The notes under the pieces: generated by a model
Told to the model about the DNA's origin: nothing
Databases searched by the model: none
What the model saw: only the letters and a program-made list of their open reading frames with translations
Source of the DNA: Hahella sp. KA22
GTDB lineage: Bacteria; Pseudomonadota; Gammaproteobacteria; Pseudomonadales; Oleiphilaceae
Direction of reading: 5' to 3'
DNA length: 64,000 bases
Assembly: GCF_004135205.1 (NCBI RefSeq)
Contig: NZ_CP035490.1
Coordinates: 4,011,644-4,075,643 of the forward strand
Shown: positions 21,693 through 50,195 of the stretch, one piece after another
Numbering within the stretch: position 1 is the stretch's first letter
Layout: the number at the start of each line of letters is the position of its first letter
Made by a program: the position numbers and the translations under genes

Positions 21693-22283
21693 TCAATCCA
21701 GCGCACATTGCAGCGCTTCCTTGAAGCGGGCGCCCCAGTCTTCCTGCGCCGCCTCGGCGCGATACGCCAATGCCTCCAGCCTGATTTCAAAGCCGGCGTC
21801 ATGTTCCGCCACCTCGCAGGTCAGGCTCCACTGCGACTGCGCTCCCGCCACGCCGGTCAGCTCAAGCTGGCGACAGGGGACTCCGGCGATGCGGCCGGTA
21901 AAGCCGTCTTTATTGAAGTAGCCGAAAAAGGCGGAGGGATACAGCGCCTCTCTGGACAGGTCAGGATGACGGGCGCCGAGGTCCTCCGCATCGTACAGGT
22001 AATGGCGGCAGGCCTCGCGGACCGCACTGGACACCTCTTGCAACAAGGCGCCCCCCTGCTCCGACCCCATGGCCACCCGCACAGGCAACAGGGTCATCAG
22101 CGGCGCGATGACCGTCTGTTGCGCCAGATTGTCGCGGCCGTGGAAGATCATGGAGACCAGTTGCTCCGCCTGCTGGTCGAGCCCGCTCTTGAACTGGGTG
22201 AACACCGCCATGAAGTATTCCGGAACGCTGATCTTCAGTCTGGCGGTCAGCGCTTCAATGCGCGCCTTGCAGTCGGCGTCCAC
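21693..22283 (-). pseudogene. Detached C-terminal lobe of the last condensation domain of NRPS3
   Basis: This frame continues NRPS3 after the frameshift at about 22374-22380. Read in this frame from the shift, the sequence gives DYWLAQLQGW, the conserved helix start of condensation domains, and then a complete C-lobe ending near 21693. The ATG at 22283 is only an internal methionine with no ribosome site, so an independent protein is unlikely. As written, NRPS3 loses this lobe. A sequencing error or slippage at the (GT)3 run would restore one protein ending at 21693. Confidence 0.8.
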
Positions 22284-25200: not shown

Positions 25201-28192
25201 GCGCGGACTTTTGCGCCTGCGCCAGGGAGGCCTGTTCATGCTTCACCAATTGCATCAGCCTGTCCTGGGCGTTCCAGAGTCCTTCCAGCACCGGCAGCGC
25301 CCCCAGACGCAGACGAATCGGCAGCGTGTTGATGAACTGCCCCATGGCGCTCTCCGCTTCGTCGCCGGCGAACATGCGTCCCAGCAGCACCGTGCCGAAC
25401 ACCACGTCATCGCGACCGCTCAGGCAGCCCACTACCTGGGCCCAGGCCAGATGAATAATCGCTGCGACGCTGACGCCGTGCGCCCTGGCCTGCCGCCGAA
25501 TCTGCGCGGATTGCGCCGGAGAGAGCGAGCGCCAGGCTTCCGTGACCGCATCTTCGCCGGTCAGATACTGTTCCAGGCCAAGGGGCGCGGGCCCCGGTTC
25601 ATAGTCCTGCAGCATGGCGTCGAAGAAGGCTTTGCGCTCTGCGGTGTCGGTTTTGCGCGCCGCAGTATTGATGTCGGAATACAGGCCGGACCGGGTCTGG
25701 GAGAACGACACGGCGGATACCGGCGCCAGCGCTTTGCCCAGCAGTTGCGCTTCTATCTCCTGCTGCATTTTTTCTACAGTGGCGTGGTCCACCGCCAGAT
25801 GATGCAGCAGGTGCAGCAACACCCATTGCCCGTTCTGGGCGTCATAGCAGTAGTAACAACGCTGCAGGGGCGCCCTGGCGATATCGAAGCGTTGCGCGGA
25901 TGCGGCGCAGCGCCGCTTCAGGGCGGTCACGGCGTCTTCACCCTCTCTTTCCGCATGCACTTCCTCTACGGCCAACGGCGCCTCTCGCCAAACCACCTGC
26001 AGCGGTTGCGCCAGCCCTTTATAGGCAATACTGACGCGAAAAGCGTCGTGCCGGGAGATAGTGTTGCGCAACGCATCCAGATAGCCATGCAACAGATCGG
26101 CGCTGGCGAACCGGGTCGCCTGCCATAACACATAAGGGTCCGCCGCCGGATTGGCGAGAGTATGATAGAACATGCCCTGCTGCAGCGGCCCCAAAGGACA
26201 GACGTCCTTGATGTTGGCGGGTCCGCCCGTGACGGCGGCGATGGCGGTCTGTTCCTCCTGGCTCAGTTGCGACCACAACGTCGGCCGGGTTTCGTTCGCC
26301 GCTAAAGTCGCCGTCCCCTGCTGCGCGTCAAACCGCCGCAACTGCGTCGCCAGATCCGCCAGGACCGGGTGCCGATACAGAGTGTGCGCATCCACGATGA
26401 AGCCGCGACGGCGCAGCGCCAGCATCATTTTCACGATAAGCAGCGAGTGGCCGCCCAGGTTGAAAAAGTGCGCGCTGCGGCCGATGTCCTGAACCCCCAG
26501 CAGCTCGCTCCACACCTCCGCCAGCAGGCGCTCCAGCGCAGTCTCGGGCGGCATGGCGTCGCCGTTGTTCGCCGCCCTGTGGGCGATGACCGGAAAGGCT
26601 TTACGGTCGACCTTGCCGCTGGCGGATAACGGGAAACGCTCCATGATGACCACCGCCGCGGGCCTCATGTAGTCCGGCGCCTGCTCCTGCATATAACGGC
26701 GAATGCTTTCCTGAACGCCCTCTGGCGTCTGTCGTTGTAGCGCCCGCTCCGAAACCAGCACGAAAGCCGCGAGACATTTGCTGTCCGCATCCTCTCCCTG
26801 CGCCGCCACGACCGCATCGCGCACCGCAGGATGCCGCATCAGCATGGCTTCGACTTCACCCAGTTCAACCCGGTAGCCGCGTATTTTGACCTGGAAATCG
26901 ATGCGGCCCAGAATGTCCAGCAGCCCGTCCGGCCGCCAGCGCGCCAGATCCCCCGTGCGATACAGGCGCCGCGGCCCGCCGCCGTCCACATCGATATCGA
27001 CGAACCGGGCGGCGGTCTCCTGCGGACGCTGATGATAGCCATAGGCGAGTTGCAGCCCGCCAATGCACAGCTCACCCGGCGTTTCGTCGCGCAACGGACG
27101 GTTGTTCTCGTCCAGCACGAACAGCTCAACCTGATCGATGGCCGCCCCCACTGAGGGCAGATCCGGCCAGCTCCGGGGATGTCCGGTCAAAGTGTGCGCC
27201 GTCACCACATGGCTTTCCGACGGGCCGTAGTGGTTATGCAGACGACAGTTCGGCAAGGCGCTGAAGAATTGCCTGATGGCGGGGGTGATCACCAGCTGCT
27301 CGCCGGCGGTCACTACATCAAGCAGCCCGCCTGGATAGCGATCCTCCGCCACCGCCGCCAGCGCCAGACTGTTCAGCGCCACATAGGGCAGAAATATCCG
27401 TTGCGCCTGCTGGGACTCGATCAGCGTCAGCAGCGCCAGCGGGTCCAGCCGCAGCTCGTTCGCCATCAACACCAGTTCGCCGCCGCTGGCCAGCGTGGCG
27501 AAGATTTCCTGAAACGACACATCAAAGCTCAGCGGGGAAAACTGCAGGGTTTTCTTACCTGCGTAGTCGCCCTGCTCGCGAATCTGCCAGTCCAGTAAAT
27601 TCACCAGGGCTTTGTGGGGCATGCACACACCCTTGGGCGTTCCCGTGGAGCCGGAGGTATAGATAAGGTACGCCAGATCCTCCGGCGCGCAGGCGCGGGG
27701 CGAATTCTGCGCCTCATCGTCGTTTGCGTCGCCGGAAAAGTCATAGGCGTCCATATCCAGGAAGGCGAAGGCATCGGGCAGCGTGCGGATTATCTCACCG
27801 CGGGAAATCACCACCGAGACATTGGAGTCGCGCAGAATATAGGCCTGACGCTCAACCGGATAACTCATGTCCACCGGCGCATAGGCCGCGCCGGCTTTGA
27901 GCGCGCCCAGCACCGCCACGATAGCGTCCATGCCGCGATCCAGGCAGACGCCGACGACGGCCATGGCGTCGCCATACTGACGGCGCAGTTCACGCGCCAG
28001 TCTGTTGGCGCGGCGGTTCAACGCCTCATAGGTCAGGGTTTGCGCGCCGAAACGCAGCGCAACAGCGTCCGGGGTGCGCGCCGCCTGACGCTCGAACAGG
28101 TCGTGCACGCAATCGTCCGCGACGGCGTCGACGCCAGGGTCGGTTTGGTCGAGATGGCCAGAATTACTGTCTGACAACGATTTAGTAAACAT
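22247..28192 (-). CDS. NRPS3: A(Pro)-PCP-C-A(Ser)-PCP-C, frameshifted in the last C
   Basis: 1981 residues from the ATG at 28192, which overlaps the peptidase-ABC stop by 11 bases; the reading back to 28213 uses a TTG. It begins directly with an A domain (about 30-530, YTSGSTGTPKG); its code D-V-Q-F-V-A-H-V-V-K fits proline. PCP1 about 580 (LGGHSLL). C1 about 640-1080 (DVCPLGPLQQGMFYH, HHLAVDH, a dual or LCL-like type with His for Gly). A2 about 1115-1620 with code D-V-W-H-F-S-L-I-D-K, serine. PCP2 about 1692 (AGGHSLL). C2 from about 1770 with SHACIDG, first histidine replaced. About 1940 residues in, a shift at 22374-22380 breaks the frame and the last ~40 residues are out of frame; the true continuation is the fragment ending at 21693. 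The missing upstream C domain is probably supplied by the C-terminal end of PKS2. Confidence 0.88.
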   Translation of the reverse strand: MFTKSLSDSNSGHLDQTDPGVDAVADDCVHDLFERQAARTPDAVALRFGAQTLTYEALNRRANRLARELRRQYGDAMAVVGVCLDRGMDAIVAVLGALKAGAAYAPVDMSYPVERQAYILRDSNVSVVISRGEIIRTLPDAFAFLDMDAYDFSGDANDDEAQNSPRACAPEDLAYLIYTSGSTGTPKGVCMPHKALVNLLDWQIREQGDYAGKKTLQFSPLSFDVSFQEIFATLASGGELVLMANELRLDPLALLTLIESQQAQRIFLPYVALNSLALAAVAEDRYPGGLLDVVTAGEQLVITPAIRQFFSALPNCRLHNHYGPSESHVVTAHTLTGHPRSWPDLPSVGAAIDQVELFVLDENNRPLRDETPGELCIGGLQLAYGYHQRPQETAARFVDIDVDGGGPRRLYRTGDLARWRPDGLLDILGRIDFQVKIRGYRVELGEVEAMLMRHPAVRDAVVAAQGEDADSKCLAAFVLVSERALQRQTPEGVQESIRRYMQEQAPDYMRPAAVVIMERFPLSASGKVDRKAFPVIAHRAANNGDAMPPETALERLLAEVWSELLGVQDIGRSAHFFNLGGHSLLIVKMMLALRRRGFIVDAHTLYRHPVLADLATQLRRFDAQQGTATLAANETRPTLWSQLSQEEQTAIAAVTGGPANIKDVCPLGPLQQGMFYHTLANPAADPYVLWQATRFASADLLHGYLDALRNTISRHDAFRVSIAYKGLAQPLQVVWREAPLAVEEVHAEREGEDAVTALKRRCAASAQRFDIARAPLQRCYYCYDAQNGQWVLLHLLHHLAVDHATVEKMQQEIEAQLLGKALAPVSAVSFSQTRSGLYSDINTAARKTDTAERKAFFDAMLQDYEPGPAPLGLEQYLTGEDAVTEAWRSLSPAQSAQIRRQARAHGVSVAAIIHLAWAQVVGCLSGRDDVVFGTVLLGRMFAGDEAESAMGQFINTLPIRLRLGALPVLEGLWNAQDRLMQLVKHEQASLAQAQKSAQVQGETPLFTTMLNYRHSDVRNVPSADPFQALNPSAVEGVSYSGVMERTTYPVSVNVDDFGDDFVVNAQVTQGHDPERVCDFFETALREIVGALEAAPETRLGRLSAMPEQERDLVVRRWNQTQADFPGEACLHWLIEAQAARTPDAVAVEFGEETLTYGQLNRRANQLARYLKEDVGVGPDAIVGVCVERSLEMVVALLAVLKAGAAYAPLDPHYPGDRLDYMLRDAAPKAVLTHAQVPADVNALLAAYAVEREARLIDLNATSAWEHKRSVDLSREETAVNASHLAYVIYTSGSTGRPKGVMNEHRGVVNRLTWMQKAHALTAEDAVLQKTPFSFDVSVWEFFWPLMYGARLVVAKPEGHKDPVYLSDLIRARRITTLHFVPSMLSPFLDQAAASVSDSLRHVFCSGEALPAQSVRRFRERFPGVELYNLYGPTEAAIDVTVWDCVGNEVGATVPIGRPIDNIRLYILDPHRQPCPVGVVGELYIAGVGVARGYLNQAELTAEKFVADPFCADGGRAMYRTGDLARFLPNGDIEYLGRNDFQVKLRGFRIELGEVEAAIASHASVKECVALVREDAPGDARLVAYVTAAPSLALANAEDVDAQADALNLALREHLQDRLPAFMIPSNFVWLATMPVTSNGKLDRKALPAPSFSAAAPSEAQAPREGVEARLAQLWRALLNTDAIGRQTHFFEAGGHSLLAVALMAGIQREFNLALSLSAIVAHLDLESQAGLIEAELARSQAEQTADAQSATLMSASTKPPASTQSPTQGIRALPAQRAIYKAVKLNPGDLSNNSFVALAFDAEPDLKQLRNLLQTVFSRHESLSAQFTLAEGELFLRPAKRFLFRLEKRHSLGSLEEDVRDFVRPFSLEDGVNVRGRWVSDAQGGVLLLDFSHACIDGSGLTQVLHELSADAAQSDAGGDLSAYSELFYSPAFALSDAHTRITGWRNCKVGRRPRRRSLLNRAPAHGWSLWTPTARRALKR
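22374..22380 (-). other. Apparent 2-bp slippage frameshift site in NRPS3
   Basis: The plus strand reads GTGTGTG here (CACACAC on the coding strand). Removing one CA/AC pair gives codons for A-H-A-D-Y-W-L-A-Q-L, the expected condensation-domain sequence, and joins the two frames. With the bases as given, the upstream frame runs into nonsense and stops at 22247. Confidence 0.8.
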
Positions 28193-31100
28193 AACTATCT
28201 TCTTTGAACTCAATAAGTTGACCGTTTTTCATGGTGATCAGGGCGTCCGCCTCGGAAAAATACTCATCATCATGGGTCACGACAAAAACGATGCGTCCCT
28301 GGGCTTTCAGCATAGGGACCCATTCCTTGTAAAACCGGGATTTGGAGCGCGGGTCCTGGTCCGCGGCCCACTCATCCAGCACCACCACCGGACTGGGGTC
28401 CGCCAGCAGCATGGCCAAAGAAAGGCGTTTGCGCTGCCCGGTGGACAGCTTGATGTTGTCGAAGGCGCCGTCGTCCAGCAGGGTGGACTTATCCGCCATG
28501 CCCAGCAGCGCGATGTTGCGGTTGATGGCGTCCCGCGCCGCGATCAGGGCGGGGTCGTATACCCGCTTGAACAGCCAGTTGTCGCTGAAGATGGCGCGGG
28601 TGTGCTCCAGCAACTGGCTTTGCGACACCTCGACGCCGTCTATCCTGAGCGCGCCCTGGGCGGGGGCGTAGAGACCCGCCAGAATCATCGCCAGGGTGCT
28701 CTTGCCGGAGCCGTTGCCGCCTGTCAGGAAGTAGGCCTTGCCCCTTTCCGCCGTCATGGAGACCGGCCCGACCCCGAAGCATTCGCTTTCCCCTCCCGGC
28801 GCGGGATAGTTGAAGCGAACGCCTTCAAGCTGCAGGGTTTTGACCGGTTGCAGGGTTTTGGCCTGTTGCAAAGTCGCGCCCGCCACGCCGGACTCAACGC
28901 TCTGGATGGACTGACTGAACGCCACCATATTGCGCATCAGGCTGCGCAGCCGCACCAGTTCGGGCATCGCCGACATGACCGCGTTCAAAGGACCGATCAG
29001 GTACAGCAGGATGATCAGATACTCTTTCGACGCATCTCCGTCGAACCGGGGAATCAGCAACGGAAACAGCAAAGCCACCGCCACCAGCAACACCGTAAGC
29101 AGGGACTCGCCGATGAAGAACGCGCTCAGGAAGCCGCGGTCATACTGAATTCTCAGTCCCTTGAAGCGGTCTGACACCGCCTGGGCGTGACGATGGAAAC
29201 TGCGTTTCACCGCCTCCCGGCGCAGCCCTTTGTAGCCCTTCTGCAGGTCTTCGACGGTGTCCATGAACTCACTGCGGGTCTGCAACGCCTGCGGCATGAT
29301 GCGGTTGGCGCGCTCGGACACGTAGTAGTACAGGCCAATCATGGGAACCGCGCAGGCCAGCAGAATGGACGTCGCCAGCGCGGATTTGAACGCCATCAGA
29401 TAGGCGAACAGAAACACAATCGTCAGCAGGTTGGCGAAGAACGGCACGAAGGCGAGCACGCTTTTGGCCAGCTCCTGGGAATCTTCACCCACCACGGACT
29501 GAATTTTTCCAGGCGAGAGTCGCTCCACGCTTTTGTAATCCGACGCCAGCAGCTTACGGATGATCTCCATGCGCCAGCCCTGCACGAAAGCGTGGCCGAA
29601 CCGCATGATCTGCAGTTCCGCGGCCTTGCGGGCGGAAATGTAGAAATAGATGCAGTTGAACAACAGCGCAGCGCTGTACGCCAGATTGGCCGCCGGGCTG
29701 TCAATCGCCTGGATGATGCACAGCACCAGGGCCGAGTTGAGCAGGCCGGAAATCACCGTCAGGCCGACCACTTTGGCGATCATCAGCGACGAAAAGGTTT
29801 TGCTGTTGAACTTGTCGCTGTGACGGGACGCCTGGAAAAAGAACAGGCTCAGAGCGTTGACGCAGACCACCAGTCCCGCCGCCGCAGCCAGCAGACTTGT
29901 TGGGCCCCACACCAGCAGGTTCGCCCATCCCAGTCCCAGGGTAAGGGGCGGCGCGATCATCAGCACCGACGCCAGCGCGACGTTCAGCACCAGCAGGCGT
30001 CCCAGGAATGCGCGCCAGCTCACCCTTTCCGCAGACTGCACGAAACTTTCCTGCACAATGGCCGCGTCCACCTGGGAGCCCTTGCCTTCGCCATCCGCCG
30101 GCTCCGCGGAACGCGTTTGCAGACGCCGCAGTACAGGCAGCGTCAGCAGCGCGCACAACCAGAAAACCACGGCGGCGACGGTCGCGCCCCAGTCTCCCGT
30201 ATCCGCGGCGAAGCGCTCCGGCAGAGGCTGCGGCGACGCGCCTCGCAGATGTTCGAAGACCGCCCGGCCCAGCTGAATCACTTGCGGGCTGTTGCTGTTG
30301 CCCAGCAACGCAACGCCGACTCCGGTTTGCGGATCGAACGCCACATAGGCGCCGGCGTTGGGGTTCTGCCCAGGATGACTCCAACTGGTGGTGGCGCCCG
30401 CCTCCACATCCCACCCGTAGGCGTAGCCTGAGTCGCTGTCGCCGCCATAGGGACGTTTCGCCTGCTGCAACGCCCATTGCAGGACGTCCAGACGCGCGTC
30501 GCTTTGCTGTGGCGGGGGCTGCAGCAGAAACTGCAACCACAACGCCATGTCCTCCGGCGTGCTGAGGATGTATCCCGCCGGGGTGTTTTGCAGATAGCGC
30601 GGCGCCTCATAAGGTCTGGCGACGGTGAAGCTGAGCTTATAGCCCGGTATGCGCGGCGCGGTGGCGGCGGGGTCGCCTTCCACAAAAGTGTCCTTCATGC
30701 CCAGAGGCAGGAAAATTTTCTCCCGTAACAGGGCCGCGAAGGATTTCCCCGTCGCCCGTTCCGCCGCCAGCCCCAACAGGCTGTAGTTCAGCGTGGCGTA
30801 CTCTTCCCTGGCGCCGACCGGGTAAGCCAGCGGCGTGTCCCGTAACAAGCCCGGCAGTTGCTCAAGAGCGTTGGCGGCGTCGCTGGGGCGCAGCAGGTCC
30901 AGGGTATCCCCGGACAGGCCGCTGCTATGGAACAGCAGATTATTCAGGCGAATGGCGGAATATCCCAATTCCGGACGCTGATTCAGCTCCGGAATCCAGC
31001 GCGTGATCGCATCCTGCCTGCTCAGCGCGCCTTCCTGCTCCAGTACGGCGATCAACAGGCCGGTGAAGGCTTTCGAACAGGACGCCAGCTCGAATACGCC

Positions 31101-31328
31101 GGCTTCCTGCTCTCCCAGACGCAACGTTTGCGCCTGACCATTGACGACCACGCTGAGTCCCCCGGTGGGGATCTGCGACGCGTCCCAGCGCCGGGTCAGC
31201 TCGCTGACCGTCTGCGCCAGGTCCGCCGCGGGCTTGACGCCCGCCATGTCGGCGAACGCGCGTCCCGTCAACGCAAACAGGAGGCTGATCAGAAGTACGC
31301 CAATGCGGATTAAGCCGACATTATTCAT
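28182..31328 (-). CDS. Periplasmic prodrug peptidase (beta-lactamase fold) fused to ABC exporter
   Basis: 1048 residues from the ATG at 31328 (AGGAGA upstream; overlaps the PKS1 stop by eight bases). A signal peptide (IRIGVLLISLLFALTGRAFA) leads to a class-C beta-lactamase/esterase domain, about 40-385, with SxxK in ELASCSKAFTG and a tyrosine motif in YATLNYSLLG. Three membrane helices follow (about 385-500), then a six-helix ABC exporter core. The nucleotide-binding domain has Walker A GGNGSGKST (about 874), signature LSTGQRKRL and Walker B VVVLDEW. Peptidase plus three helices is the design of ClbP and XcnG, which cut N-acyl-D-Asn caps from prodrugs. The extra ABC half is the ZmaM-type arrangement. 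With the Asn-epimerising NRPS1 in the same operon, export plus cap removal is the expected role. It should face the periplasm. Confidence 0.88.
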   Translation of the reverse strand: MNNVGLIRIGVLLISLLFALTGRAFADMAGVKPAADLAQTVSELTRRWDASQIPTGGLSVVVNGQAQTLRLGEQEAGVFELASCSKAFTGLLIAVLEQEGALSRQDAITRWIPELNQRPELGYSAIRLNNLLFHSSGLSGDTLDLLRPSDAANALEQLPGLLRDTPLAYPVGAREEYATLNYSLLGLAAERATGKSFAALLREKIFLPLGMKDTFVEGDPAATAPRIPGYKLSFTVARPYEAPRYLQNTPAGYILSTPEDMALWLQFLLQPPPQQSDARLDVLQWALQQAKRPYGGDSDSGYAYGWDVEAGATTSWSHPGQNPNAGAYVAFDPQTGVGVALLGNSNSPQVIQLGRAVFEHLRGASPQPLPERFAADTGDWGATVAAVVFWLCALLTLPVLRRLQTRSAEPADGEGKGSQVDAAIVQESFVQSAERVSWRAFLGRLLVLNVALASVLMIAPPLTLGLGWANLLVWGPTSLLAAAAGLVVCVNALSLFFFQASRHSDKFNSKTFSSLMIAKVVGLTVISGLLNSALVLCIIQAIDSPAANLAYSAALLFNCIYFYISARKAAELQIMRFGHAFVQGWRMEIIRKLLASDYKSVERLSPGKIQSVVGEDSQELAKSVLAFVPFFANLLTIVFLFAYLMAFKSALATSILLACAVPMIGLYYYVSERANRIMPQALQTRSEFMDTVEDLQKGYKGLRREAVKRSFHRHAQAVSDRFKGLRIQYDRGFLSAFFIGESLLTVLLVAVALLFPLLIPRFDGDASKEYLIILLYLIGPLNAVMSAMPELVRLRSLMRNMVAFSQSIQSVESGVAGATLQQAKTLQPVKTLQLEGVRFNYPAPGGESECFGVGPVSMTAERGKAYFLTGGNGSGKSTLAMILAGLYAPAQGALRIDGVEVSQSQLLEHTRAIFSDNWLFKRVYDPALIAARDAINRNIALLGMADKSTLLDDGAFDNIKLSTGQRKRLSLAMLLADPSPVVVLDEWAADQDPRSKSRFYKEWVPMLKAQGRIVFVVTHDDEYFSEADALITMKNGQLIEFKEDSYVY

Positions 31329-34300
31329 TGACTTCGCTCTCCTGACGCTGGCTCGCGCCCCGCAACTTGCGACGGGCCTGCAGCGCCCGTCGCTTGTCGC
31401 CAAGGTCCGCCTGCGCAGACGGCGCGGGATCGACCGGGGCGGATTCCGTCGGCGCCAGTTCCTTGCTCAACTCACGCAGGGAGGCGGCTTTAAACAGCAG
31501 GGCCACCGGAATCTCACGGGCCAGCCTTTGCTCCAGTCGCTTGGCGAACTGGATCAGGTCCAGTGAGGTCGCTCCCAGGTTGAAGAAGCTGGCGTCAACA
31601 TCCAGCCCGTCCGTCCCCAGGAAGCTTTCCAGCATGGCGCGCATCGCCGTCAGCAGCGTTTCCGCGTCCGCGCCCGCCAGAGATTCCGCCTCATCGGCGG
31701 CGTCCGGCGCGCCCTGAGAAGCGCTGGCGCTGAACAGCATCTGCTGAGTGCTCAGTTGTTTCTCCAGCACGACGCCGATCGGCAGTTTGGATACAGCGGC
31801 AAAAGACGATGAGGTCTGGCGCGCCAGGGTCGCCATCGCCAGGGCAATACGTGTTCCTTCCTGGTTCGACAGTCCCTCTTCCCGCAGTTTGGCGGCGAAG
31901 CTTCGCTCCTCCGAACGCGTCTCCATCGCAATGACGATCTTTCCGATGTGCCTGCCCTGGGCCATAAACTGAAACGCCTCGGCGATGTCTCTGGCGGCGT
32001 AGGCTTTGGTGGGCAGCGGTCTCAGCGCCTCCCGCTCCAGCAGCGCCACGACCTCGGACCAGGCTTCATTGTAAGCAGGGTGCTCCGCCCCGGCTTGCAC
32101 GGCGTGGAAACTGCCGCCCTTCGCAAAAATCGACAATCCCAGCTTCCAATCCTGCAGGATGTCCCGCAGGCCAAGCTCCAGAAAACGACCTTGCGGCGCT
32201 AACAAAGACACGCTTTCTTCCAGAAGTTCTCCCGCCAGCGCGTTGAGAATCACCTGGAAAGGCCGTTCGCCCAGGCGCTCGCGGAAAACGTCGCCGAATT
32301 CACGGGTTCTGGAGTTCGCCGTGCCCTGGGCGCCCAGACTCACCAGCAGATTGCGTTTTTCTTCGCTGCCGGCGGTGACCCAGACTTCCGCCCCCAGATG
32401 CAACGCGATCTGCATCGCCGCCATGCCCACGCCCCCAGCGGCGGAATGGATCAGTATGCGTTCGCCCCGTTTGAGATTGGCGGCATGCTTCAGAGCGATC
32501 CAGGCGGTGGTGAACGCGACAGGAACGCCGGCGGCCTGCTGATATCCGAGCACAGGGGGGATAAGAGCCACCACCCGCTCCGGCATCAGGACATGGTCCG
32601 CCAGACAGCTGTGTCCCGCGCACATCACGCGGTCGCCGACGCGAACCTTCGTCACCTCCGCGCCAACCCGGGTGACGACGCCCGCCGCTTCCTGGCCGAA
32701 GGTCATGCTTGGATCGGACGGCGCGGGTAAAACCCCCAGGGCGATCAAGACATCCTTGAAGTTCAGACCCGCCGCCCTGACTTGAATCTCCACCTCCAGC
32801 GGGCCGGGCTCCCGGCGCGGCTCCTGGCGGGATTCGAAGGCGAAATTGCCGTCGCTGGCGTCGCCATTGCGCAAACGCATGACGGCGTGACGGGCCGAGT
32901 CATTACTGCGTAACGCTTCAGACGCATCCACCAGCAGCAGGTCGTCGATCGCCACCAACAAGGCGTTCGCATCCGAATAGATTTTCACCTGCAGCAATTT
33001 ACCGGCGCCCAGATCGCTGACCTGCACCCGGCTCCTGACCCGGTCGCACATGGGCGCATACTGCGTGAAGGCGCCGATGGACACTGGCGCATATTGCGCG
33101 TCTTCCTGTTCCGGAGAGGCGATCAGGGTGGCGGTGTCCAGCAATGCGACATGCAGCCCCTCCGCCGCCGCTTCGCCCTGATAAGCCGCCGGCAGCTGCA
33201 ATTGCACAGCGACGGCGTCGGGGGCGACGCGATCCACCGCGATCACATTGCGCCAGCGCGGTCCGAAGGCCAGCGCGCCTTTGGGGCTGACGCCGACACC
33301 ATCGCGAGCGCGGAACAGAGGCTCCCTCTCCCCAACTGACTCCTCGTCCCCGACTGTCTCCTTACCCCCGACTGGCTCCGGGCCCGCCTGTTGCGATGAG
33401 ATTGCGCTATCGCCAAGGCGGATTTTGCCAGTTGCGTGGCGGGTCCAGGACTCTGCGGAGAATGCGCCAACGCCGGAGAAAATCGTGAAAGCGGCGTGGT
33501 CGTCGGAGAACGCCACCGCCACGTCTAACTCTACTCCGTCCTGCACCACCAGCGGCCTTTCAATGGCGACGCCGTGCAGGGAAAACCGTTGCGCCAGCGC
33601 TTGTGCGGCGATGGCGCGATAGGCCAGCGTCACCATGCCCATGGCCGGCATCACCGTCGTGGCGGCATCCATGCGGTGCTCGTCCAGCCACCAGTCCCGC
33701 CTGGCGTCCAGGGGGCGGCGCCACAGCGAGGCATGCTCCGCTTCGGACCGCACAGGCTGTTTGAGGGCGTCATCCAGTTGCTGCGCCGAGCGCGTCGCCA
33801 TGCCGGACTCCGCCCAGTCGTCCCAGGCGATGGCCAGCGCGCGGCCGCCCCGTCGACGCACCTGTTCGGCGTATGCCTCCAGACAGGCGTTGGCGGAAAC
33901 ATAGGCGACCTGACCGACTTTTTCCTTCGGCAGCAGGTTGCCCAGACTGGAGAACAGCAACAGGGTCGGTTTCCCCAGCCGCTCCAGGTTGTCGCACAGG
34001 AAACGGGTTCCCGTGACTTTCGGCGCCAGGGTGGCGAGGGATTCCGCCTCCGAGCGCATCTGCATCATGGCGCCTTCGCCGCGACCAGCGGTATGGAACA
34101 CATAGTCGACGCCAACGCCCTGCGCCGCGAGCTGGAACACCGGCGCGAAAGCCTTGTTCAGAGTTGCTTCGTCGCCAAGATCCCCCTGCAGCAAAGTGAC
34201 GCGGCCACCTTTGAATTCCAGGCTCAGCACCCATTGCAGAAACTCAGCGTTGGCGCTCTGCCTGGCGATCTCCGCCGCCCAGTCCCGTCGCGGCGGCAGA

Positions 34301-40800: not shown

Positions 40801-41261
40801 GAGACCAGTAACGAGCTGCTCCAGCCATCCATCAGTATGTGATGGAAACAGAAAGCAATGCTCAGCGTCCCCGCTGCAACGTCATGCAGGCAGGCGATGC
40901 GGAACACTTCGGCGTCCAGCTCGAAGGGCCGCGCCTTGGACTGGGCCAGCCAGTCGAGACAGCGGGCTTTGTGGTCTGACGCAGCGAGAGGCGCATAATC
41001 CAAAGCAATGCGGGGCGACGCATACACCGCCTGATGCGGCGTACGCAGGCCACGCCACAGGAAAACGGATCGCAGGGCGGGCTGCGACGTTTGGATTCGC
41101 CGCCACAGGTCGCCAATTTCCGCCTCGCTCGCCGGCGTGCGCAGAGTAAAGGACACGCCAATGTGATAGGCGCTGTTGCCGTCCTTCAACGCATGAAACA
41201 GCAAACCGCTCGCTTGCGGAGTCGCCTGCAGCAACTCCTCAATGTAGTTTGACGACATCAT
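37896..41261 (-). CDS. NRPS2: C-A-PCP module
   Basis: 1121 residues from the ATG at 41261, which overlaps the AT gene's TGA; GGAG lies nine bases upstream, and a longer reading from 41267 would need TTG. Condensation domain about 10-440 with a perfect HHILMDG. Adenylation domain about 500-990 (FTSGTTGAPKG, YRTGDAV, lysine in LTGKVDR). The code reads D-P-E-N-W-F-H-V-D-K, which I cannot assign. PCP near 1027 (FFDAGGDSIKI). It directly follows the Asn-epimerising NRPS1 in function, so its C domain should accept a D-configured donor. Its amino acid would become the new N-terminus once the acyl-D-Asn cap is cut. It ends in PCP and hands the chain to the KS of PKS1, with which it is translationally coupled. 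Confidence 0.9.
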   Translation of the reverse strand: MMSSNYIEELLQATPQASGLLFHALKDGNSAYHIGVSFTLRTPASEAEIGDLWRRIQTSQPALRSVFLWRGLRTPHQAVYASPRIALDYAPLAASDHKARCLDWLAQSKARPFELDAEVFRIACLHDVAAGTLSIAFCFHHILMDGWSSSLLVSLWVQGLRGQAIPPLASRLYSQQLWKGLDPEALQRSREYWRDALQGVDDRDVAVTTKLLDEPLFRRATSKSNTDAAPLAETTAKAGRLWPQARKAEIEALCRRAGVTPASFVYLCWALTLSKLTFQKTVAFGCAFSGREAALAQNAEQQPLGLFTNTTPLLLTLDGAWTLEKALRAMFQTLQRTQAHEKTPPLLIREIAGQREELYDSLVVFDNYPIDPSLQDASYATSLTDLHTEETTHFGLTLTVSGADAWKVELSAGETFSGDPAAVTAAFHAFDSLAADLVAQADDAPIADGLLQLVPDQAQASHLVAGATTATADINAALQGIRQRLIEAPQNIGLIDGDRLIGHGELAQRIAAVQAQLARAGFVVGDRVGVHAPKGEGSTVAILAILFSGGSYFYLNPKDPTSRRQTLLELAGCGIVLSDAALIPELGADSGCLLLEIEERVEIGTIGETEASPAAQMDSDPSTLRSQLPVLCSQRRPEDEFYFIFTSGTTGAPKGISIRNESVANLLDWFIGETGLTQADRVLGLTDLNFDPSVEDLFGSLCVGATLIYPPPLVLQERAAFIRMMQETEATLVNFIPGAIAPLLEDAPRLPAMRLWIFGGEELPLRLRDQLLAQGYAVSNHYGPSETTVDCLSARQSLDAEIAIGWPIQNVVAYCADIFGKPLPPGVRGELWVAGRAVARGYATNPVETARAFVNYQDQRFYRTGDAVTFSPASGFNYLGRIDDQVKINGVRIEPRELERVVETMAEVQASCLLPVSDPGGKRQWRLFVDSAAPAAQLEPRVREHIRRHLPESWTPSRILAVNGFARTLTGKVDRRRLLDIAARQAREDAQTAAAQAPLTDPVEAQVQAIWRDILETPAVASDINFFDAGGDSIKIITLQSQLQQRFARDIGVAVIFEHPTIASFAAWIRRSEASAEHTGAQTDPADAGAASTQAHILSSARSGKNRLADRRRKVKGSSVS

Positions 41262-42511
41262 GCGCAACGCTCCGCCGCGTCGTAAAGGTGTTGCAGCCTG
41301 CGCTTGTCGATGGCCAGAGAGACGGCGCCGGCGTCTTCAATAATGTTCAGCCACTGCTGGGTGCGGGCGTGAATGAAGGCAGCCTGTCTGTCGTTTTTGT
41401 CCTGTTGGCGGTCCGCATCAGCCAGCGTCTCCTTTACTTCGTTTCTGATGCGTCGCAGCTGTTGCACGGCGCCGGGATCATCCAGAACCGGCAGTTTCGC
41501 GCTGTACAGGTGATAACAGCAGCGCTGCAGAAACTGCTCGCGGCGATTCTGCGGCGCGCTCATCGTCTGTGCGAAGGCGAACAGGTCCTGAGGCTCGCAA
41601 ACCGATTGCATAGGCAAGGTCGCGCGCTGGGTCAGATAACTCAGGACGGATTTGGGGGAAATTTCCAGATAACGGGTGACGCCGTTTTGCGCCACATACT
41701 GCAAACTCCGCAACCACTGCACCGGCGACGTCAGGTGTTGCAGGATGGAGGCTTTTATGTTCGCCGCCGGCGTTTCCGCGCCGCTCACATTACAGACCAG
41801 GCGGGACAGCTGCTCGACCGGTTGTGCGGTGGGCAGGAAGTCAAGCTGGCGCTCCAGTTGCGCGCGCGCCTCCGCCATCAGCGGAGAGTGGAAAGGTCCG
41901 CCGATCTTCAGGGGATACAGCAGACCGCCCATGGCCTCCATCCGCGGCGCAAAACGTCTAATCTCCGCCATTTCTCCAGAGACCGTCGCCTGATCGAAGG
42001 CGTCTATGGCGGAGATGTAGATATTCACCCCATCCTCTGCTCTCGCCTTCTCCACTTCCTGCGCGACGGTCGCGGCCGGGGCGTGCAGCACCCAGCACAT
42101 TTCGCCTTGCTCGAACTGACGCGCACAGGCCTCGACGATCTCCGAACGCAGATTGACCACCTGCGTCAGCGTAGCCAGATCCAGATAGCCGGCGGCGCAC
42201 ATGGCGGGATATTGCCCCAGGCTGTGTCCCATCACAAAATCGGGAACCAGCCCGCAGTGCTTGCGCAAAATGTCGGCGATGGCGACGGTGGTCGCCGTCA
42301 GCGCCAACTGGGCGACGCGCACCTGCTTTAGGGCGTCGCGGCGCTCGCCATGAATCACCTCCTGCAGGTTGACCTGGGACAGCTCCGACACTTCCTGCAG
42401 GCGCTCCCGATACTCGGGATAGACCAGGAATTCGGCGAACATATCCGGCTGCTGGGCGCCCACTCCGGGAAAAAGAAAGACGGTTTTAGCTGAATCCATA
42501 GCGGTTCTCAT
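41258..42511 (-). CDS. Discrete (trans-acting) acyltransferase
   Basis: 417 residues of the FabD/ZmaF type. It opens with VFLFPGVGAQ, the nucleophile motif is VMGHSLGQYPA, and the histidine motif is GGPFHSPLM. The last ~100 residues are helical and poorly conserved. The ATG overlaps the NRPS1 stop as ATGA, with GGAG upstream. PKS2 has no AT domain, so this enzyme should load its ACP. Because the cluster carries an aminomalonyl-ACP pathway and ZmaF of zwittermicin transfers such unusual extender units, it may prefer aminomalonyl-ACP over malonyl-CoA. That specificity is inference; the HxFH residue pattern here (PFH) does not decide it. Confidence 0.85.
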   Translation of the reverse strand: MRTAMDSAKTVFLFPGVGAQQPDMFAEFLVYPEYRERLQEVSELSQVNLQEVIHGERRDALKQVRVAQLALTATTVAIADILRKHCGLVPDFVMGHSLGQYPAMCAAGYLDLATLTQVVNLRSEIVEACARQFEQGEMCWVLHAPAATVAQEVEKARAEDGVNIYISAIDAFDQATVSGEMAEIRRFAPRMEAMGGLLYPLKIGGPFHSPLMAEARAQLERQLDFLPTAQPVEQLSRLVCNVSGAETPAANIKASILQHLTSPVQWLRSLQYVAQNGVTRYLEISPKSVLSYLTQRATLPMQSVCEPQDLFAFAQTMSAPQNRREQFLQRCCYHLYSAKLPVLDDPGAVQQLRRIRNEVKETLADADRQQDKNDRQAAFIHARTQQWLNIIEDAGAVSLAIDKRRLQHLYDAAERCA

Positions 42512-45500
42512 ACTGCGGCTCCGTTAATGATGAGATCCAGCTCCGTCTGTGAGAGCTGGCAAAAGGGAAAATCCGAGGGAAGCAGGACGGACGGCGCGCC
42601 AGAAATCGCGTCGCCCTCGCCCAGCAGTGCGTCGCGCCAGGCTGACAGTCCGGCGTTCAGTTGCGTCAGATACTGGATGGCGCGCGTCTCGCTGGCGCCA
42701 GGAACGCCTAGACGTAACTCCACGCTAACCGCGCCGGACTCGCGCTCGTCAAACACCAGCAGGTCGAAGTCGGCCACACTGCGTTCCTGCGGGTGACGGA
42801 AGCCCCCGGACAACGACGGCGTCAGCGTGAAGTGACGCCACTGCCCGCTCAGTCCCCGCCCAATGTCGTTGATACAGAGCAAAGGCCTGACCCGCTGGGT
42901 CTGCGCGCCCAGATGACGTAGCCAGTTCTGGCGTCCGTCGCAACAACGGGACTTGATCTCTCGCAACTGCGCCGACGCGCCTTGCGCAAGCGGATCAAGG
43001 CTCACCTGATGGAAGCCGGTGAACCAGCCCACCGCATTGGCCAGCGCGCCGTCCCATTCGTGGGGAACGTTCGCTTCCGAAAAAACGCGACCGTGATGTT
43101 CAAACAGCAGCGCGGGCTGCGCCGGCGTGGCGTTGTCTTCATCCAGCGCCGCCATCAGCGCGGCGGCGAGCAACTGGGTGCGCTCCGCCTTGAGCCGCCG
43201 CTCCATGTCCTGAATGTCCGCGCCCGACAGCGTCAGCGTCAACCTGACCGGCTCCGCCGTCGCCGCCGCATCCCCGCAGGGCGTCACCGGCGCTTCGCCG
43301 CCGTGATCGCGCAGCCATTTCCCCCACAGGAACGCGCCGGCCTCCACCTCTCCGCCGGCGATAGTCGCGTCGCCCAGGGCCTGATCCAGTTCATCCAGTA
43401 AATAAATCCAGGAATGCACGTCGCAAATCAGGTGATGGCACACCCAGATCAGATAGTTCTGGTTCGACGCAGGATCGCAAACGATTTCGTGAACGCTGGG
43501 CTGATGTTGCAGGCTGACTGCGCCCTGCAACTCACGCAACCGCGCCATGAGCGACTCCCCTGTCGCCAGTTCATGTACGGCCAGCGAGGTAGAGGCGGAC
43601 TCAAAGTGACACGCGCTAAGGTCGGCGTTGGTTCTCAGCGCAAAGATTTTATGGCGCGCCTGCACCGCCAGAACGGCGGCGTGAATGCGCTCCGGCGCCA
43701 GCGACGACGGCGCCGCCAGGGTCACCCCCTGTTGCAGGCGATCCGGATAGTGAAAGCCTTGCTCCCGCATCCAGCGCACGCTGGGCAGATGGGTGATCCA
43801 GTTCGCATCGACGTCCCCAATGGCGATGGCCTCGCCGGCATGCTGCGTCTGACCGTTGGCGCAGGCTTTCTCCAGCACGGCGCCCAGGGCGGACATGGAC
43901 AACAGCTCCCCTGCGCCGACGCGGACGCCCTGCTTCGCAAGCAGCGCCGCCAGGCGGATGGCTTTGATGGAGTCGCCCCCCAGCGCCAGGAACGACGCCT
44001 TCAGGTCCACGCCCTGGGGCCAGATCGGCGCGAAAAAGTCGTCATTCAACCACTCAGGCAGGGTATAGGTTTGTGCGGCGTCGGCGTCCTGAGCGCCAAT
44101 GCTGCGCGAGGGCGTCAGCGTCGCCGCCAGGGCGTTGTGAGCCGCCGCCGTCAGCGCCTTCATATCCACTTTGCCGTTGGCGTTGACCGGCCAGGGCGCC
44201 ACCGTGCAGTACAGGCCGGGGAGCCAGGCGTCGGGCAGTCTGTCCTGCAGGCGCGCCAGAAAATCCGGGTTGTCGTGAGGGATCGGTTCGCTGCTGCACA
44301 GCGCCACCAGCTCGCGGTTCTCACCTGCCCCGTCCGATGTATGCGAGGCGTTGGCGGCGGCAATTTTCAGCGCTTTTATCTTGCCCTGGCGATCCTCCGC
44401 GCCGAGGGCCGCCAGCGCGCTTTCCACTGCTTTTTCAATTTCCGTGGGATGAATGCGGTAACCACGCACTTTGAATTCTTCGTCGATGCGCCCGAGACAG
44501 TGCAGCTCCCCCTGGGCGTCCAGCACGCCCAGGTCGCCGGAGCGATACCAGCGATGTCCGTCCCGACGACTGCGCACGAATTTGGCGTCAGTCTGCATGG
44601 AGTTGTTGAGGTAACCCTCCGCCAGCACCGGGCCGCCTATCCATAACTCGCCCTGAAATCCTTGCGGCATGGGTTCGCCTCTGGCGTCGCGCACCGACAT
44701 CCGCGCAGCGCCAAGCGGCGCGCCAATGGGCGTGACGCCTGCGCTGTCTTCAGCGGCTACAGTCGAACTGTGACTTGTATGAATGCAGCAGCCCACCGTT
44801 GCTTCCGTAGGACCGTATTCATTCACCACGCAGCTAGCCGCCGGGAAAACACGTAACGCCTGACGCACCAGTCCCTCGGACAGGTTTTCGCCGCCGACTA
44901 CAAAGGTCAGCGGTTGGCACCGCGGAACGCTGTGCTCGGTGAGCAAAGACAAATGGGAGGGCGTGCATTTCACCCCGGACAGGCGCTCATCCGCCAGCAG
45001 CGTCCGCAGCAACTCGGGGTTATCGCGAATATCCTGTTCATGAGGCTGCATAAACCCGCCGGACAGGACAGGAACCAGAATGCTGGTCTGGGTGAGGTCG
45101 AATCCAAAGGAGGTGAACAGCGGGGTATTGAACGGTCGTTCCCCGGCGTACGCCTCAGTGGCCGCCACGGCGTAATGCGCCAGCGCCACAGGAGAGATCG
45201 CCACGCCTTTAGGCTCTCCCGTCGAGCCTGAGGTGTACAGGATATAAGCCGGTTTATCCTGGACTGCGTCCGTTAAGGCGTCCGGCGTCGGCGCCATTGT
45301 TGCGGACCAAACCGATGACTCTGGCGCCTGGTGACTCGACCATTCCAGCGGAACGGACATGTCCAGCAGCGCCAACGGCAGCTCCAGGCTTTCCGCCAGA
45401 CTCTGATCAGGCTCTACGTACAGGCACAGAGACGCCCCGGAATTTCGCGCGATAGTTAACAGCCTGGCCGCGGGCGTCGTGGGACAAACAGGAACCACGG

Positions 45501-47094
45501 TGATGTTATCGATCAGGCACGCCAGATACGCCAGCACCGTCGCCGGCGTGCGGCGCCCAAGGATCATGACGGGTCGGTCGTCGTCGGCGCGTTGCTGACG
45601 AAGTTGTTCACGTAGCGCGCGCATCCAGTCCCAGCCCTGGCGGTAATAAATGGGATCACTTTCAGGGCTGGCGCTAAACAGGATCTGGTTGGAGTAACGC
45701 TGAAAAGCATCTCTGATGCGCACGCCGATGGGCGCCGTGGACTCTGCGTCGGCGCCATCAACCCGCGGCGCGAAGGTCGTTTCTGTCTTATCTGCTTGAT
45801 GCATCGCCTCCGCGGCGGTCATCACGTCCGCAGCCGCTTCCATCGCGTAATCGACCACCGTCTGCATAAAAGCGAGGCATTGAGGCTCCGACCACTGGCG
45901 ACGAAAATCCGCTTCCAGCTTGATGCTTCCATCTTCGAAGCGATCATGAATATGCACGGTGGCGAACAGCGCTTCCACCGCCTGCAAATGGTCGATTTCC
46001 ACCTGGGCGCCAGAGACGGAAGGCTGAAACGCGCCGGTCTGATAGGACACGCCGAACGCAGGAATGACCCGTTTCCAGTCTTGTGAGGCGAAGTCGCCCC
46101 AGCGCGCGCCGGGGGCGTATCGGGAATGCGCCAGGGCTTTTTGCAGCCCCTTGCGCAGCACGCGATAGCAGTCCGCCACGGTCTCGCCCGCCGCGCGGGA
46201 TACCGGAACCAGCACCGGCGCCACGGCCATGGCGATGGCGCGTTTTTCGTCCTCGCTCCAGCGGTTCAGCATCGGCGCCTGCACCAGGACCCCGTCGCCG
46301 TCTTCCACCACCATCTGCGCATAGGCGACGGCGGCGAAAAACAGACGGAACACGGAACCGCCTCCAGCCCTGAACCGACTCAGCAACGCATTTTGATCAG
46401 CGCGTAAAGACAAGCGCACGCGCCGGCTGCGCGCCTCCCCGCCCCGGTAGTCGCCAATGGGCTGGCGGCCGCTTTGCTGAGCGGCGGGGGCGGATTCGCC
46501 GAACAGGCTGCGCCAGTATTGCGCGTCCCTGCTCCAGCGTGGAGACGCTTCGTACTCCTGTTCCCGCTCAGCCATGACGGAAAAAGCAGGGCTCCCGACC
46601 AGCCCACAGGCGTCGCCTTCCAGCGCCGCCGCCAGGCGTTCCATTAATAACGCCAGTGCGGCTCCGTCTGCAGCGGCGTGGTGGGCCTTCACAAACCAGC
46701 CGGATTGTTGGTCGCGATACTGGACGGCGAAGACGCGGATCGGCGTTCGCGACAGATCCTCTTCCAGCAGCAGCTGACGCTCGGCCCACTGGGAGAACGC
46801 CTGTTCCGGATCAGGATGCTGGCTGAAATCCACCTTTTGCACGTCCGCCCATGGCGCCTCATGACGCACGCCCCGCCACAGCGCGTCGGACGCATCGGCG
46901 ACAAAGCCAATGCGAAAGACATCCTCGGCCTGAATGACCGCTTCAGCCGCCTGCGCCAGACGCTCCAGCGCCAGACCGCCGTGCAGGCGCGCCACGCCGC
47001 CCAGATAAAACCGCCGCCCGGACAAATGAAAGGCTTCCATCTTGAAAACGGTCTGTTGTGACCGGGACAACTCAAATGTCAGCGTATTCATCAT
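42508..47094 (-). CDS. NRPS1: C(starter)-A(Asn)-PCP-E prodrug-loading module
   Basis: 1528 residues; the ATG follows directly on the TAA of the serine A-domain gene. C domain about 10-440 with HHAAADG; as the first module it is probably a starter C domain adding a fatty acyl group. A domain about 480-960 (YTSGSTGEPKG). The specificity residues read D-L-T-K-V-G-E-V-G-K, a standard asparagine code. PCP near 1040 (LALGGDSIKA). The last domain is an epimerase: HHLICDVHSW, LFEHHGR, VGWFTGF and the later NDIGR are E-domain motifs. Product: an N-acyl-D-asparaginyl thioester. The same C-A-PCP-E layout with Asn opens colibactin, xenocoumacin and zwittermicin assembly. Confidence 0.92.
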   Translation of the reverse strand: MMNTLTFELSRSQQTVFKMEAFHLSGRRFYLGGVARLHGGLALERLAQAAEAVIQAEDVFRIGFVADASDALWRGVRHEAPWADVQKVDFSQHPDPEQAFSQWAERQLLLEEDLSRTPIRVFAVQYRDQQSGWFVKAHHAAADGAALALLMERLAAALEGDACGLVGSPAFSVMAEREQEYEASPRWSRDAQYWRSLFGESAPAAQQSGRQPIGDYRGGEARSRRVRLSLRADQNALLSRFRAGGGSVFRLFFAAVAYAQMVVEDGDGVLVQAPMLNRWSEDEKRAIAMAVAPVLVPVSRAAGETVADCYRVLRKGLQKALAHSRYAPGARWGDFASQDWKRVIPAFGVSYQTGAFQPSVSGAQVEIDHLQAVEALFATVHIHDRFEDGSIKLEADFRRQWSEPQCLAFMQTVVDYAMEAAADVMTAAEAMHQADKTETTFAPRVDGADAESTAPIGVRIRDAFQRYSNQILFSASPESDPIYYRQGWDWMRALREQLRQQRADDDRPVMILGRRTPATVLAYLACLIDNITVVPVCPTTPAARLLTIARNSGASLCLYVEPDQSLAESLELPLALLDMSVPLEWSSHQAPESSVWSATMAPTPDALTDAVQDKPAYILYTSGSTGEPKGVAISPVALAHYAVAATEAYAGERPFNTPLFTSFGFDLTQTSILVPVLSGGFMQPHEQDIRDNPELLRTLLADERLSGVKCTPSHLSLLTEHSVPRCQPLTFVVGGENLSEGLVRQALRVFPAASCVVNEYGPTEATVGCCIHTSHSSTVAAEDSAGVTPIGAPLGAARMSVRDARGEPMPQGFQGELWIGGPVLAEGYLNNSMQTDAKFVRSRRDGHRWYRSGDLGVLDAQGELHCLGRIDEEFKVRGYRIHPTEIEKAVESALAALGAEDRQGKIKALKIAAANASHTSDGAGENRELVALCSSEPIPHDNPDFLARLQDRLPDAWLPGLYCTVAPWPVNANGKVDMKALTAAAHNALAATLTPSRSIGAQDADAAQTYTLPEWLNDDFFAPIWPQGVDLKASFLALGGDSIKAIRLAALLAKQGVRVGAGELLSMSALGAVLEKACANGQTQHAGEAIAIGDVDANWITHLPSVRWMREQGFHYPDRLQQGVTLAAPSSLAPERIHAAVLAVQARHKIFALRTNADLSACHFESASTSLAVHELATGESLMARLRELQGAVSLQHQPSVHEIVCDPASNQNYLIWVCHHLICDVHSWIYLLDELDQALGDATIAGGEVEAGAFLWGKWLRDHGGEAPVTPCGDAAATAEPVRLTLTLSGADIQDMERRLKAERTQLLAAALMAALDEDNATPAQPALLFEHHGRVFSEANVPHEWDGALANAVGWFTGFHQVSLDPLAQGASAQLREIKSRCCDGRQNWLRHLGAQTQRVRPLLCINDIGRGLSGQWRHFTLTPSLSGGFRHPQERSVADFDLLVFDERESGAVSVELRLGVPGASETRAIQYLTQLNAGLSAWRDALLGEGDAISGAPSVLLPSDFPFCQLSQTELDLIINGAAV

Positions 47095-49951: not shown

Positions 49952-50195
49952 TTACCACCGCCTTTCTCTCCAAGAAATGACAGACAGCCTGAATACTACA
50001 AAAGTTGGCGTTATCAAGGTCGTCTATTTCAACCTTGATTCTGAAGTTTTTTTCGAGAAAGGAGATTAATTGGATAGCGGCCAGGGAGTTAACCAGACCT
50101 GTTTCGAAGATGTCGACTGAGTCGTCCAAATCCTGTTTTCCAGCGAGTTTACTCAGGTATTCAGACACTAATTTTTTACGCGCAGATACGTCCAT
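49944..50195 (-). CDS. Discrete acyl carrier protein
   Basis: 83 residues, a small carrier protein with the attachment serine at position 37 in DIFETGLVNSLAAIQLI. That sequence follows the FkbJ/ZmaH pattern (phenylalanine and G-V-N-S-L) rather than the DSL of fatty-acid ACP. It is the first gene of the cluster operon, with AAAGGAAAGT upstream of its ATG and a candidate promoter at 50317-50346. It should carry the seryl unit charged by the stand-alone A domain while the two dehydrogenases oxidise it. A phosphopantetheinyl transferase is not in the window and must come from elsewhere. Confidence 0.9.
   Translation of the reverse strand: MDVSARKKLVSEYLSKLAGKQDLDDSVDIFETGLVNSLAAIQLISFLEKNFRIKVEIDDLDNANFCSIQAVCHFLERKAVVNA

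Follow-up and report, generated by a model that had tools for sequence, protein, structure and literature searches.

The cluster and its fused peptidase

We analyzed a 64-kb stretch of DNA from Hahella sp. KA22 (the window; positions 4011644-4075643 of a genome assembled as one contig of 6.96 Mb). The window contains a cluster of 15 minus-strand genes, running from 50195 down to 6260, which encodes nonribosomal peptide synthetases (NRPSs), polyketide synthases (PKSs) and a peptidase fused to an ATP-binding cassette (ABC) half-transporter. The gene order is carrier protein, acyl-CoA-dehydrogenase-like protein, stand-alone adenylation (A) enzyme, NRPS1, discrete acyltransferase (AT), NRPS2, PKS1, peptidase-ABC protein, NRPS3, NRPS4, PKS2, cupin-type oxygenase, thioesterase, GNAT acetyltransferase and 3-hydroxyacyl-CoA-dehydrogenase-like protein (Table 1). 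Judged from its sequence, the cluster very probably makes a product with a protective cap, which the fused exporter-peptidase would export and free of its cap. We propose that this is a rhabdobranin (rdb)-type PKS/NRPS cluster working by an N-acyl-D-Asn prodrug mechanism, and place the probability of this reading at roughly 0.87.

The peptidase-ABC protein is 1073 amino acids (aa) long and matches PF00144 (E 9e-54) and ABC_tran (E 2e-22). Its top PDB matches are full-length ClbP entries (E 2e-45), over residues 72-520, which span the peptidase and the transmembrane domain. Hydropathy (Kyte-Doolittle) peaks at 407-425, 465-483 and 497-515/504-522, consistent with three helices that separate the peptidase from the ABC half (maxima within 475-498 overlap these and are not counted separately). 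A further hydrophobic stretch lies near the N-terminus at 29-47, by hydropathy only. The ABC half, at approximately 540-1073, is C-terminal to the three-helix domain, and its best NCBIfam models are PRK10522 (274/604 bits, score/cut-off) and the cyclic peptide exporter TIGR01194 (253/286 bits). A sequence-only reading of the locus had described a beta-lactamase-fold peptidase with three extra helices and a fused ABC exporter, and the Pfam domains, the ClbP match and the hydropathy profile all bear this out. Translation probably does not begin at the TTG assigned by the open reading frame (ORF) finder. Met26 (ATG, approximately 31328) is kept in the window protein and seven aligned fused homologues, and is the likely start.

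The peptidase carries the residues that set ClbP apart. With residues mapped along the ClbP alignment (ClbP chain number plus 30), the catalytic S95, K98 and Y186 of ClbP correspond to S108, K111 and Y202, so that the S108-x-x-K111 motif and the tyrosine called for by the sequence-only reading are present. The D-Asn pocket positions E92, 188, 257 and N331 correspond to E105, T204, N273 and N347, K235 to K256, and W460 and W466 to W493 and W499. Thus all ten positions checked are as in ClbP or its published variants. According to published passages on these enzymes (PMC9889268), N331 is invariant among prodrug-activating peptidases, though not across the S12 family as a whole; the prodrug-activating enzymes have serine or threonine, not asparagine, at 188 and histidine or asparagine at 257.

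We compared these positions in an alignment of 38 rows: the window protein twice, 15 peptidases of the cluster family, eight second peptidases from the Xenorhabdus bovienii genus and 13 S12 comparators, which are partial-match loci from the phylum and order genome samples described below. All ten residues are found in 16 of 16 peptidases of the cluster family, and nine of ten in every one of the eight second peptidases (K235 is replaced by glutamine). The 13 comparators all have the catalytic serine, lysine and tyrosine and all have asparagine at 188. None of the 13 has N331 and none has both tryptophans; single pocket positions recur in a few (E92 in 3/13, N257 in 2/13). The expected likeness to ClbP, over ordinary beta-lactamases and esterases, is upheld by N331 and the tryptophan pair.

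The NRPS module predicted to load acyl-D-Asn sits near the peptidase gene. NRPS1 (1528 aa) has Pfam matches to Condensation (two stretches), AMP-binding and PP-binding, and the code of its A domain, D-L-T-K-V-G-E-V-G-K, is identical in all eight clusters in which it was read. The C-terminal third has a condensation fold with a weak score (PF00668, 31.0 bits; cut-off 30.6), weak PDB matches, tyrocidine synthetase A (2xhg, E 7e-5) among them, and the motif HHLICDVHSW; we read it as an epimerization (E) domain. Domains, code and motif agree with the C-A-PCP-E architecture and asparagine code previously proposed for this protein. Orthologues 59-96% identical to NRPS1 occur in 8 of 8 genomes, namely six relatives with 68-74% peptidase identity and two genomes of the same genus.

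Collinear clusters and the rhabdobranin family

Relatives of the fused protein were sought by a contig scan with three same-genus sequences as queries and two patterns. Both patterns lie within the ABC half, so unfused forms were outside its reach. The scan gave at least 23 loci, of which at least 17 match only the ABC half (21-31% identity) and at least six are relatives at 68-74%: Photorhabdus khanii, P. tasmaniensis, X. bovienii T228, Chromobacterium subtsugae, C. sphagni and Parachitinimonas caeni. Gene order is shared by 15 of 15 genes with the same-genus genomes G001 and G002, with P. khanii and with C. subtsugae. The 15 genes of P. tasmaniensis are also in this order, with only a partial match for the thioesterase; X. 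bovienii T228 has 14 of 15, the thioesterase being absent; and P. caeni has the first ten, up to a contig end that cuts NRPS4. Across two Photorhabdus and nine X. bovienii-genus genomes the same order is found, though several of these genomes lack individual genes or have them interrupted. The peptidase gene occupies the same place in all 16 clusters compared, out of 17 found; the cluster of C. sphagni (L032/G1126) was omitted as its contig ends inside the peptidase gene. Short frames were seen in G1132 (PKS1, 1138 codons; NRPS4, 1659 codons), in G1145 (stand-alone A enzyme, 346 codons) and in P. tasmaniensis (thioesterase, 141 codons).

Several features of this arrangement are those reported for the rdb clusters. 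The published rdb account, as far as its passages go (Shi et al. 2022, PMC9177418), divides these clusters into three types according to whether the first A domain of RdbH and the TE domain of RdbI are present, and describes rhabdobranin as having a Pro-Ser dipeptide that branches from the nitrogen of an aminomalonyl unit. In X. budapestensis, deletion of rdb1P led to the loss of four N-myristoyl-D-Asn congeners and the gain of four pre-rhabdobranins, which carry the acyl-D-Asn cap (PMC9177418). If the genes are lettered from the carrier protein (A) onward and the peptidase is kept out of the count, NRPS3 becomes H and NRPS4 becomes I. The two A domains of NRPS3 have codes that are Pro-type and then Ser-type, and the first of these domains is missing in both Photorhabdus clusters. 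In reading codes, positions 299 and 301 were taken as neighbours, and residue 299 was read by eye outside NRPS1.

Because of the collinearity, the lettering of NRPS3 and NRPS4, the Pro and Ser codes and the presence or absence of the first A domain, we place the cluster in the rdb family. It resembles the rdb clusters in its peptidase gene, Asn cap module, optional first A domain of RdbH, TE domain of RdbI, aminomalonyl genes and Pro-Ser modules. From the same anatomy we infer that the collinear Xenorhabdus and Photorhabdus clusters are the published rdb ones. The window differs from these in its bacterial genus and in a broken last domain of NRPS3. In contrast to the nine X. bovienii-genus clusters, in none of which a thioesterase gene was found, it has one, and it keeps the fused ABC half that seven of the nine lack.

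The rdb-type peptidase has a patchy distribution. It occurs in 3 of 7 genomes of the window's own genus, 9 of 30 of the X. bovienii genus (61-69% identity; any match at 1e-20 in 14 of 30), 2 of 12 of the P. khanii genus and 2 of 19 of the C. subtsugae genus (2 of 61 in its family). In class, phylum and order samples (369, 398 and 390 genomes; E limits 1e-25, 1e-20 and 1e-20) no match covered the three-helix part except in the window's own genome. Besides that genome, partial S12 matches were found in 0 of 368, 10 of 397 and 3 of 389 genomes, respectively. These samples are sparse: every bearer known from the other searches is missing from them. Matches to the full protein occur in 1405 plasmid records, but in no case over more than 80% of its length; the best 30 of the 1405 match only in the ABC part, and the peptidase part has no match at E 1e-20.

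In the NRPS3 of X. bovienii T228 (G1124:C517, approximately 15904-21738, L030), the core of the first A domain (aa ~81-460) is 97-100% identical in DNA to that of the second, compared with 55-58% just outside the cores (80% at one place in the comparison). This looks like a recent copy of the A core, which would change Pro to Ser, although an artefact of the draft assembly is possible. NRPS3 of G1130 has the same motifs as T228, at the level of motifs and not of DNA. In a separate comparison the NRPS3 of the window matched the NCBIfam model for SolG of the solanimycin cluster with 1460 bits, strongly but below the cut-off of 2200, which we took as generic similarity between Ser modules. As reported (PMC10204066), aminomalonyl genes are absent from the sol cluster, and the portions consulted contain no mention of the word peptidase.

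Proposed mechanism and alternatives

Judging from its domains, NRPS1 would load, acylate and epimerize asparagine. NRPS2, PKS1, NRPS3, NRPS4 and PKS2 would build the remaining scaffold, with an aminomalonyl unit presumably made by the A, ACP and dehydrogenase set and delivered by the discrete AT. A Pro-Ser dipeptide would come from NRPS3, as its codes and the published rdb product suggest. The capped and presumably inactive compound would then be exported by the ABC half, probably as a dimer, and the fused peptidase, whose active site is recognizable in the sequence, would cut the acyl-D-Asn cap outside the cytoplasm. Active product that re-enters the cell would be acetylated by the GNAT protein. 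This putative self-resistance role is suggested by the PamZ case (PMC9054821) and by others of the kind. A capped, inactive product that is exported and activated by removal of acyl-D-Asn had been put forward from the sequence; the ClbP fingerprint, the Asn module and the rdb collinearity support it. The prodrug logic of that reading is well supported. The reading missed the rhabdobranin family and the aminomalonyl genes, lumped fused and unfused peptidases, and overlooked a frame break in NRPS3.

Some observations weigh against this interpretation. The cluster of this strain is known here from its genes alone, and its rdb membership was set through published description (in passages) and anatomy and not through the sequence of X. 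budapestensis rdb1. The ABC half falls below the TIGR01194 cut-off (253 vs 286 bits) and the E domain of NRPS1 is barely above that for Condensation. In addition, NRPS3 is frame-broken in this assembly, so the strain may not make the full product. Relative to G002, the frame is lost near 22.3 kb (22247-22400). The frame extends over about 2170 codons in both G001 and G002, and in the latter it runs into a terminal Condensation domain (tail match, E 1e-21). The break can be either real or an assembly error.

This break leads to an alternative that is compatible with the proposed mechanism, in which the cluster is decaying: the assembly line would halt ahead of branch attachment, leaving the peptidase-exporter to serve only remnants or another substrate. 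The longer frames of the two relatives and the Condensation match in the lost tail speak for it. However, the other 14 genes are open, with domains 92-100% identical to those of G002, a single break can be an assembly error, and two relatives have uninterrupted copies; we consider decay unlikely, at about the level of one case in a few. Less probable still is the same prodrug mechanism acting on another scaffold, like that of zwittermicin, edeine or colibactin. Aminomalonyl sets also occur for zwittermicin and colibactin, and no substrate is assigned here to NRPS2 or NRPS4. The peptidase-ABC fusion itself has been published, in the passages available, for zwittermicin, edeine and paenilamicin (PMC9889268). 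Against this, the gene order, the Pro and Ser codes of NRPS3 and the H/I lettering fit rdb, and we regard another scaffold as improbable. The Pfam name of the peptidase, Beta-lactamase, would allow an ordinary beta-lactamase, esterase or D-peptidase that lies in the cluster by chance. Since none of the 13 S12 comparators has N331 or the tryptophan pair, and all 16 clusters have the gene at the corresponding position, this explanation is hardly credible.

The products of zwittermicin, edeine and paenilamicin synthesis have scaffolds unlike the one proposed here. Their peptidases ZmaM, EdeA and PamJ, likened here through published description and not by sequence, are proteins of about 1,100 aa with a ClbP-like peptidase and an ABC half-transporter, as in the window (PMC9889268, in passages). 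For zwittermicin and edeine, a ClbP-type boronate inhibitor is reported to cause a loss of N-acyl-D-Asn and the appearance of a larger capped compound (PMC9889270). The peptidase-ABC protein is ZmaM-like because its ABC half is fused. ClbP shares with it the catalytic residues, the D-Asn pocket (or its published variants) and the three-helix domain. However, ClbP and XcnG (the latter likened by description) are described in the same passages as having no ABC half, and they serve other products (PMC9889268). Consequently, the pairing that had been attributed alike to colibactin, xenocoumacin and zwittermicin applies in its fused form to the ZmaM-like case only.

The window peptidase is 98% identical to its orthologue in G002, which we take to be, probably, the ClbP-like protein of Hahella chejuensis. 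That protein was named a ClbP orthologue (Dubois 2011, as cited in Massip 2019) and was shown to bring antibacterial activity back to an E. coli Nissle clbP mutant; the passages that describe it give no cluster, fused exporter or product (PMC6776366). Therefore the peptidase class, the ABC fusion and the H. chejuensis orthologue are already in print. An antiSMASH survey of five Hahella genomes lists 17 NRPS/PKS hybrids, and in its consulted portions the words peptidase and zwittermicin are absent (PMC9030710). The rhabdobranin literature, as sampled, concerns Xenorhabdus or Photorhabdus (PMC9177418 among it). In titles and abstracts of the open literature (the best 35 of 38 matches for Hahella and 15 of 188 for Chromobacterium and Parachitinimonas) we found no report of rdb-type clusters in these three genera. 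Our reading would extend rhabdobranin-type biosynthesis to them, beyond the Xenorhabdus and Photorhabdus of the earlier reports so sampled, and would assign an orphan cluster to a concrete product class that is open to testing. The collinear clusters, which include those of insect-associated bacteria, vary in the fused exporter and in the first A domain of NRPS3 (Pro-type, Ser-type or absent). They form a natural series that bears on the coupling of export to cap removal and on the evolution of assembly lines.

Fused and unfused forms, and neighbouring features

The peptidase is fused to the ABC half in 9 of the 16 clusters (open frames of 1070-1116 codons) and unfused in seven, all from the X. 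bovienii genus. The unfused frames, of 545-589 codons, stop shortly beyond the third helix, and the match in G1144 runs across a single TGA. The seven form one clade with bootstrap 100, both in the peptidase tree and in a concatenate of seven cluster proteins, which omits PKS1 (interrupted in G1132), NRPS3, NRPS4, PKS2 and patchy genes and in which P. caeni is represented without two of the seven owing to its contig end. The position of the two fused X. bovienii-genus clusters depends on the tree: they join Photorhabdus in one (support 97) and the unfused clade in the other (61). The trees are midpoint-rooted without an outgroup. Fused forms fall to either side of the midpoint, so a single loss is the simplest account, and the sequences suggest one clean loss of the ABC half in the Xenorhabdus clade. 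As there is no outgroup, the history may instead have been a gain of the ABC half.

We searched for a replacement exporter with the ABC half only. At E 1e-3 it has no match in the 48-50-kb regions of G1133, G1144 and G1154, it matches the regions of G1131, G1145 and G1155 only in the ATPase part (26-29%), and in that of G1132 it has a 27% match over most of its length. Flanking ORFs were read by eye for four of the seven unfused clusters, in part: G1131 and G1133 have ptsI/crr-like and sulfate-operon-like genes and G1132 a stand-alone peptide-exporter-like gene. In G1145 (joined region 669-2216) a gene that by eye looks like an ABC-F ATPase adjoins the unfused cluster, and could be a ribosome-protection gene or be there by chance.

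A broader proposal, to which we give even odds, is that a single family switched from a ZmaM-type fused to a ClbP-type stand-alone peptidase through one clean loss after the third helix, the window form being the older and making rhabdobranin outside nematode-symbiotic bacteria. If so, the fused form may pass the capped compound directly from pump to scissors, and rdb-type clusters would be a natural paired test of this coupling.

In 8 of the 30 X. bovienii-genus genomes we observed the second prodrug-type peptidase with a D-Asn pocket (L083-L090), 29-32% identical to the first and 488-518 codons long. Both types occur together in G1124, G1133 and G1145.

Table 1. Genes of the cluster and an associated ORF, in cluster order (window coordinates)
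Feature	Position	Strand	Basis
Stand-alone carrier protein, 83 aa, first cluster gene, aminomalonyl-ACP set	49944..50195	-	ORF; DltC/ACP-like, below cut-offs
Acyl-CoA dehydrogenase family, aminomalonyl-ACP set	48800..49951	-	family match
Stand-alone adenylation enzyme, serine-type code DVWH..SLIDK, aminomalonyl-ACP set	47095..48690	-	family match and code
NRPS1, C-A(Asn)-PCP-E, predicted N-acyl-D-Asn cap-loading module	42508..47094	-	domains, code, motif
Discrete acyltransferase, probably loads AT-less PKS2 with aminomalonyl (putative role)	41258..42511	-	family match
NRPS2, C-A-PCP, code DPEN..GHVDK	37896..41267	-	domains and code
PKS1, KS-AT-KR-DH-ER-ACP	31321..37899	-	domains
ClbP-like peptidase (~70-387), three-helix domain (~407-522) and fused ABC half-transporter (~540-1073)	28182..31403	-	
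NRPS3 (RdbH position), A(Pro-type)-PCP-C-A(Ser-type)-PCP and first part of terminal C domain, frame-broken	22247..28213	-	
ORF probably holding the out-of-frame rest of the NRPS3 terminal C domain	21693..22283	-	frames compared with G002
NRPS4 (RdbI position), N-terminal 280 aa without Pfam match, then A-PCP-C-A-PCP-TE	15165..21620	-	
PKS2, KS-(no AT found)-KR-ACP-C	10094..15259	-	domains
Cupin-8/JmjC-type oxygenase, probable hydroxylase	8972..10081	-	family match
Type II thioesterase	8158..9057	-	family match
GNAT acetyltransferase, candidate self-resistance enzyme (putative role)	7344..8087	-	PF00583, PF12746
3-hydroxyacyl-CoA dehydrogenase family, aminomalonyl-ACP set	6260..7111	-	family match

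The smaller genes are conserved to differing degrees. In the seven other clusters compared, the carrier protein (82-98% identity) and the acyl-CoA-dehydrogenase-like protein (81-99%) are present in all, the 3-hydroxyacyl-CoA-dehydrogenase-like protein (84-98%), the cupin-type oxygenase (71-94%) and the GNAT protein (62-94%) in six, and the thioesterase in five. Among eight further clusters the thioesterase was found in none, and the cupin gene was not found in two (G1131 and G1155). We assume that the two dehydrogenase-like genes act in aminomalonyl-ACP formation and that the code of the stand-alone A enzyme specifies serine.

The G+C content of the cluster is 0.618 vs 0.515 in the remaining window, and cluster exceeds flank in all 8 of the regions compared, of which the window is one. 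No tRNA was detected in the window by ARAGORN. An ATP-grasp gene of the L-amino-acid-ligase type (50819-52102) adjoins the cluster, and was left out of it since no match at E 1e-15 was found in seven other regions. Just past the other end of the cluster, a plus-strand ORF (5391-6167) has, by eye, the look of a chitinase-type glycosidase.

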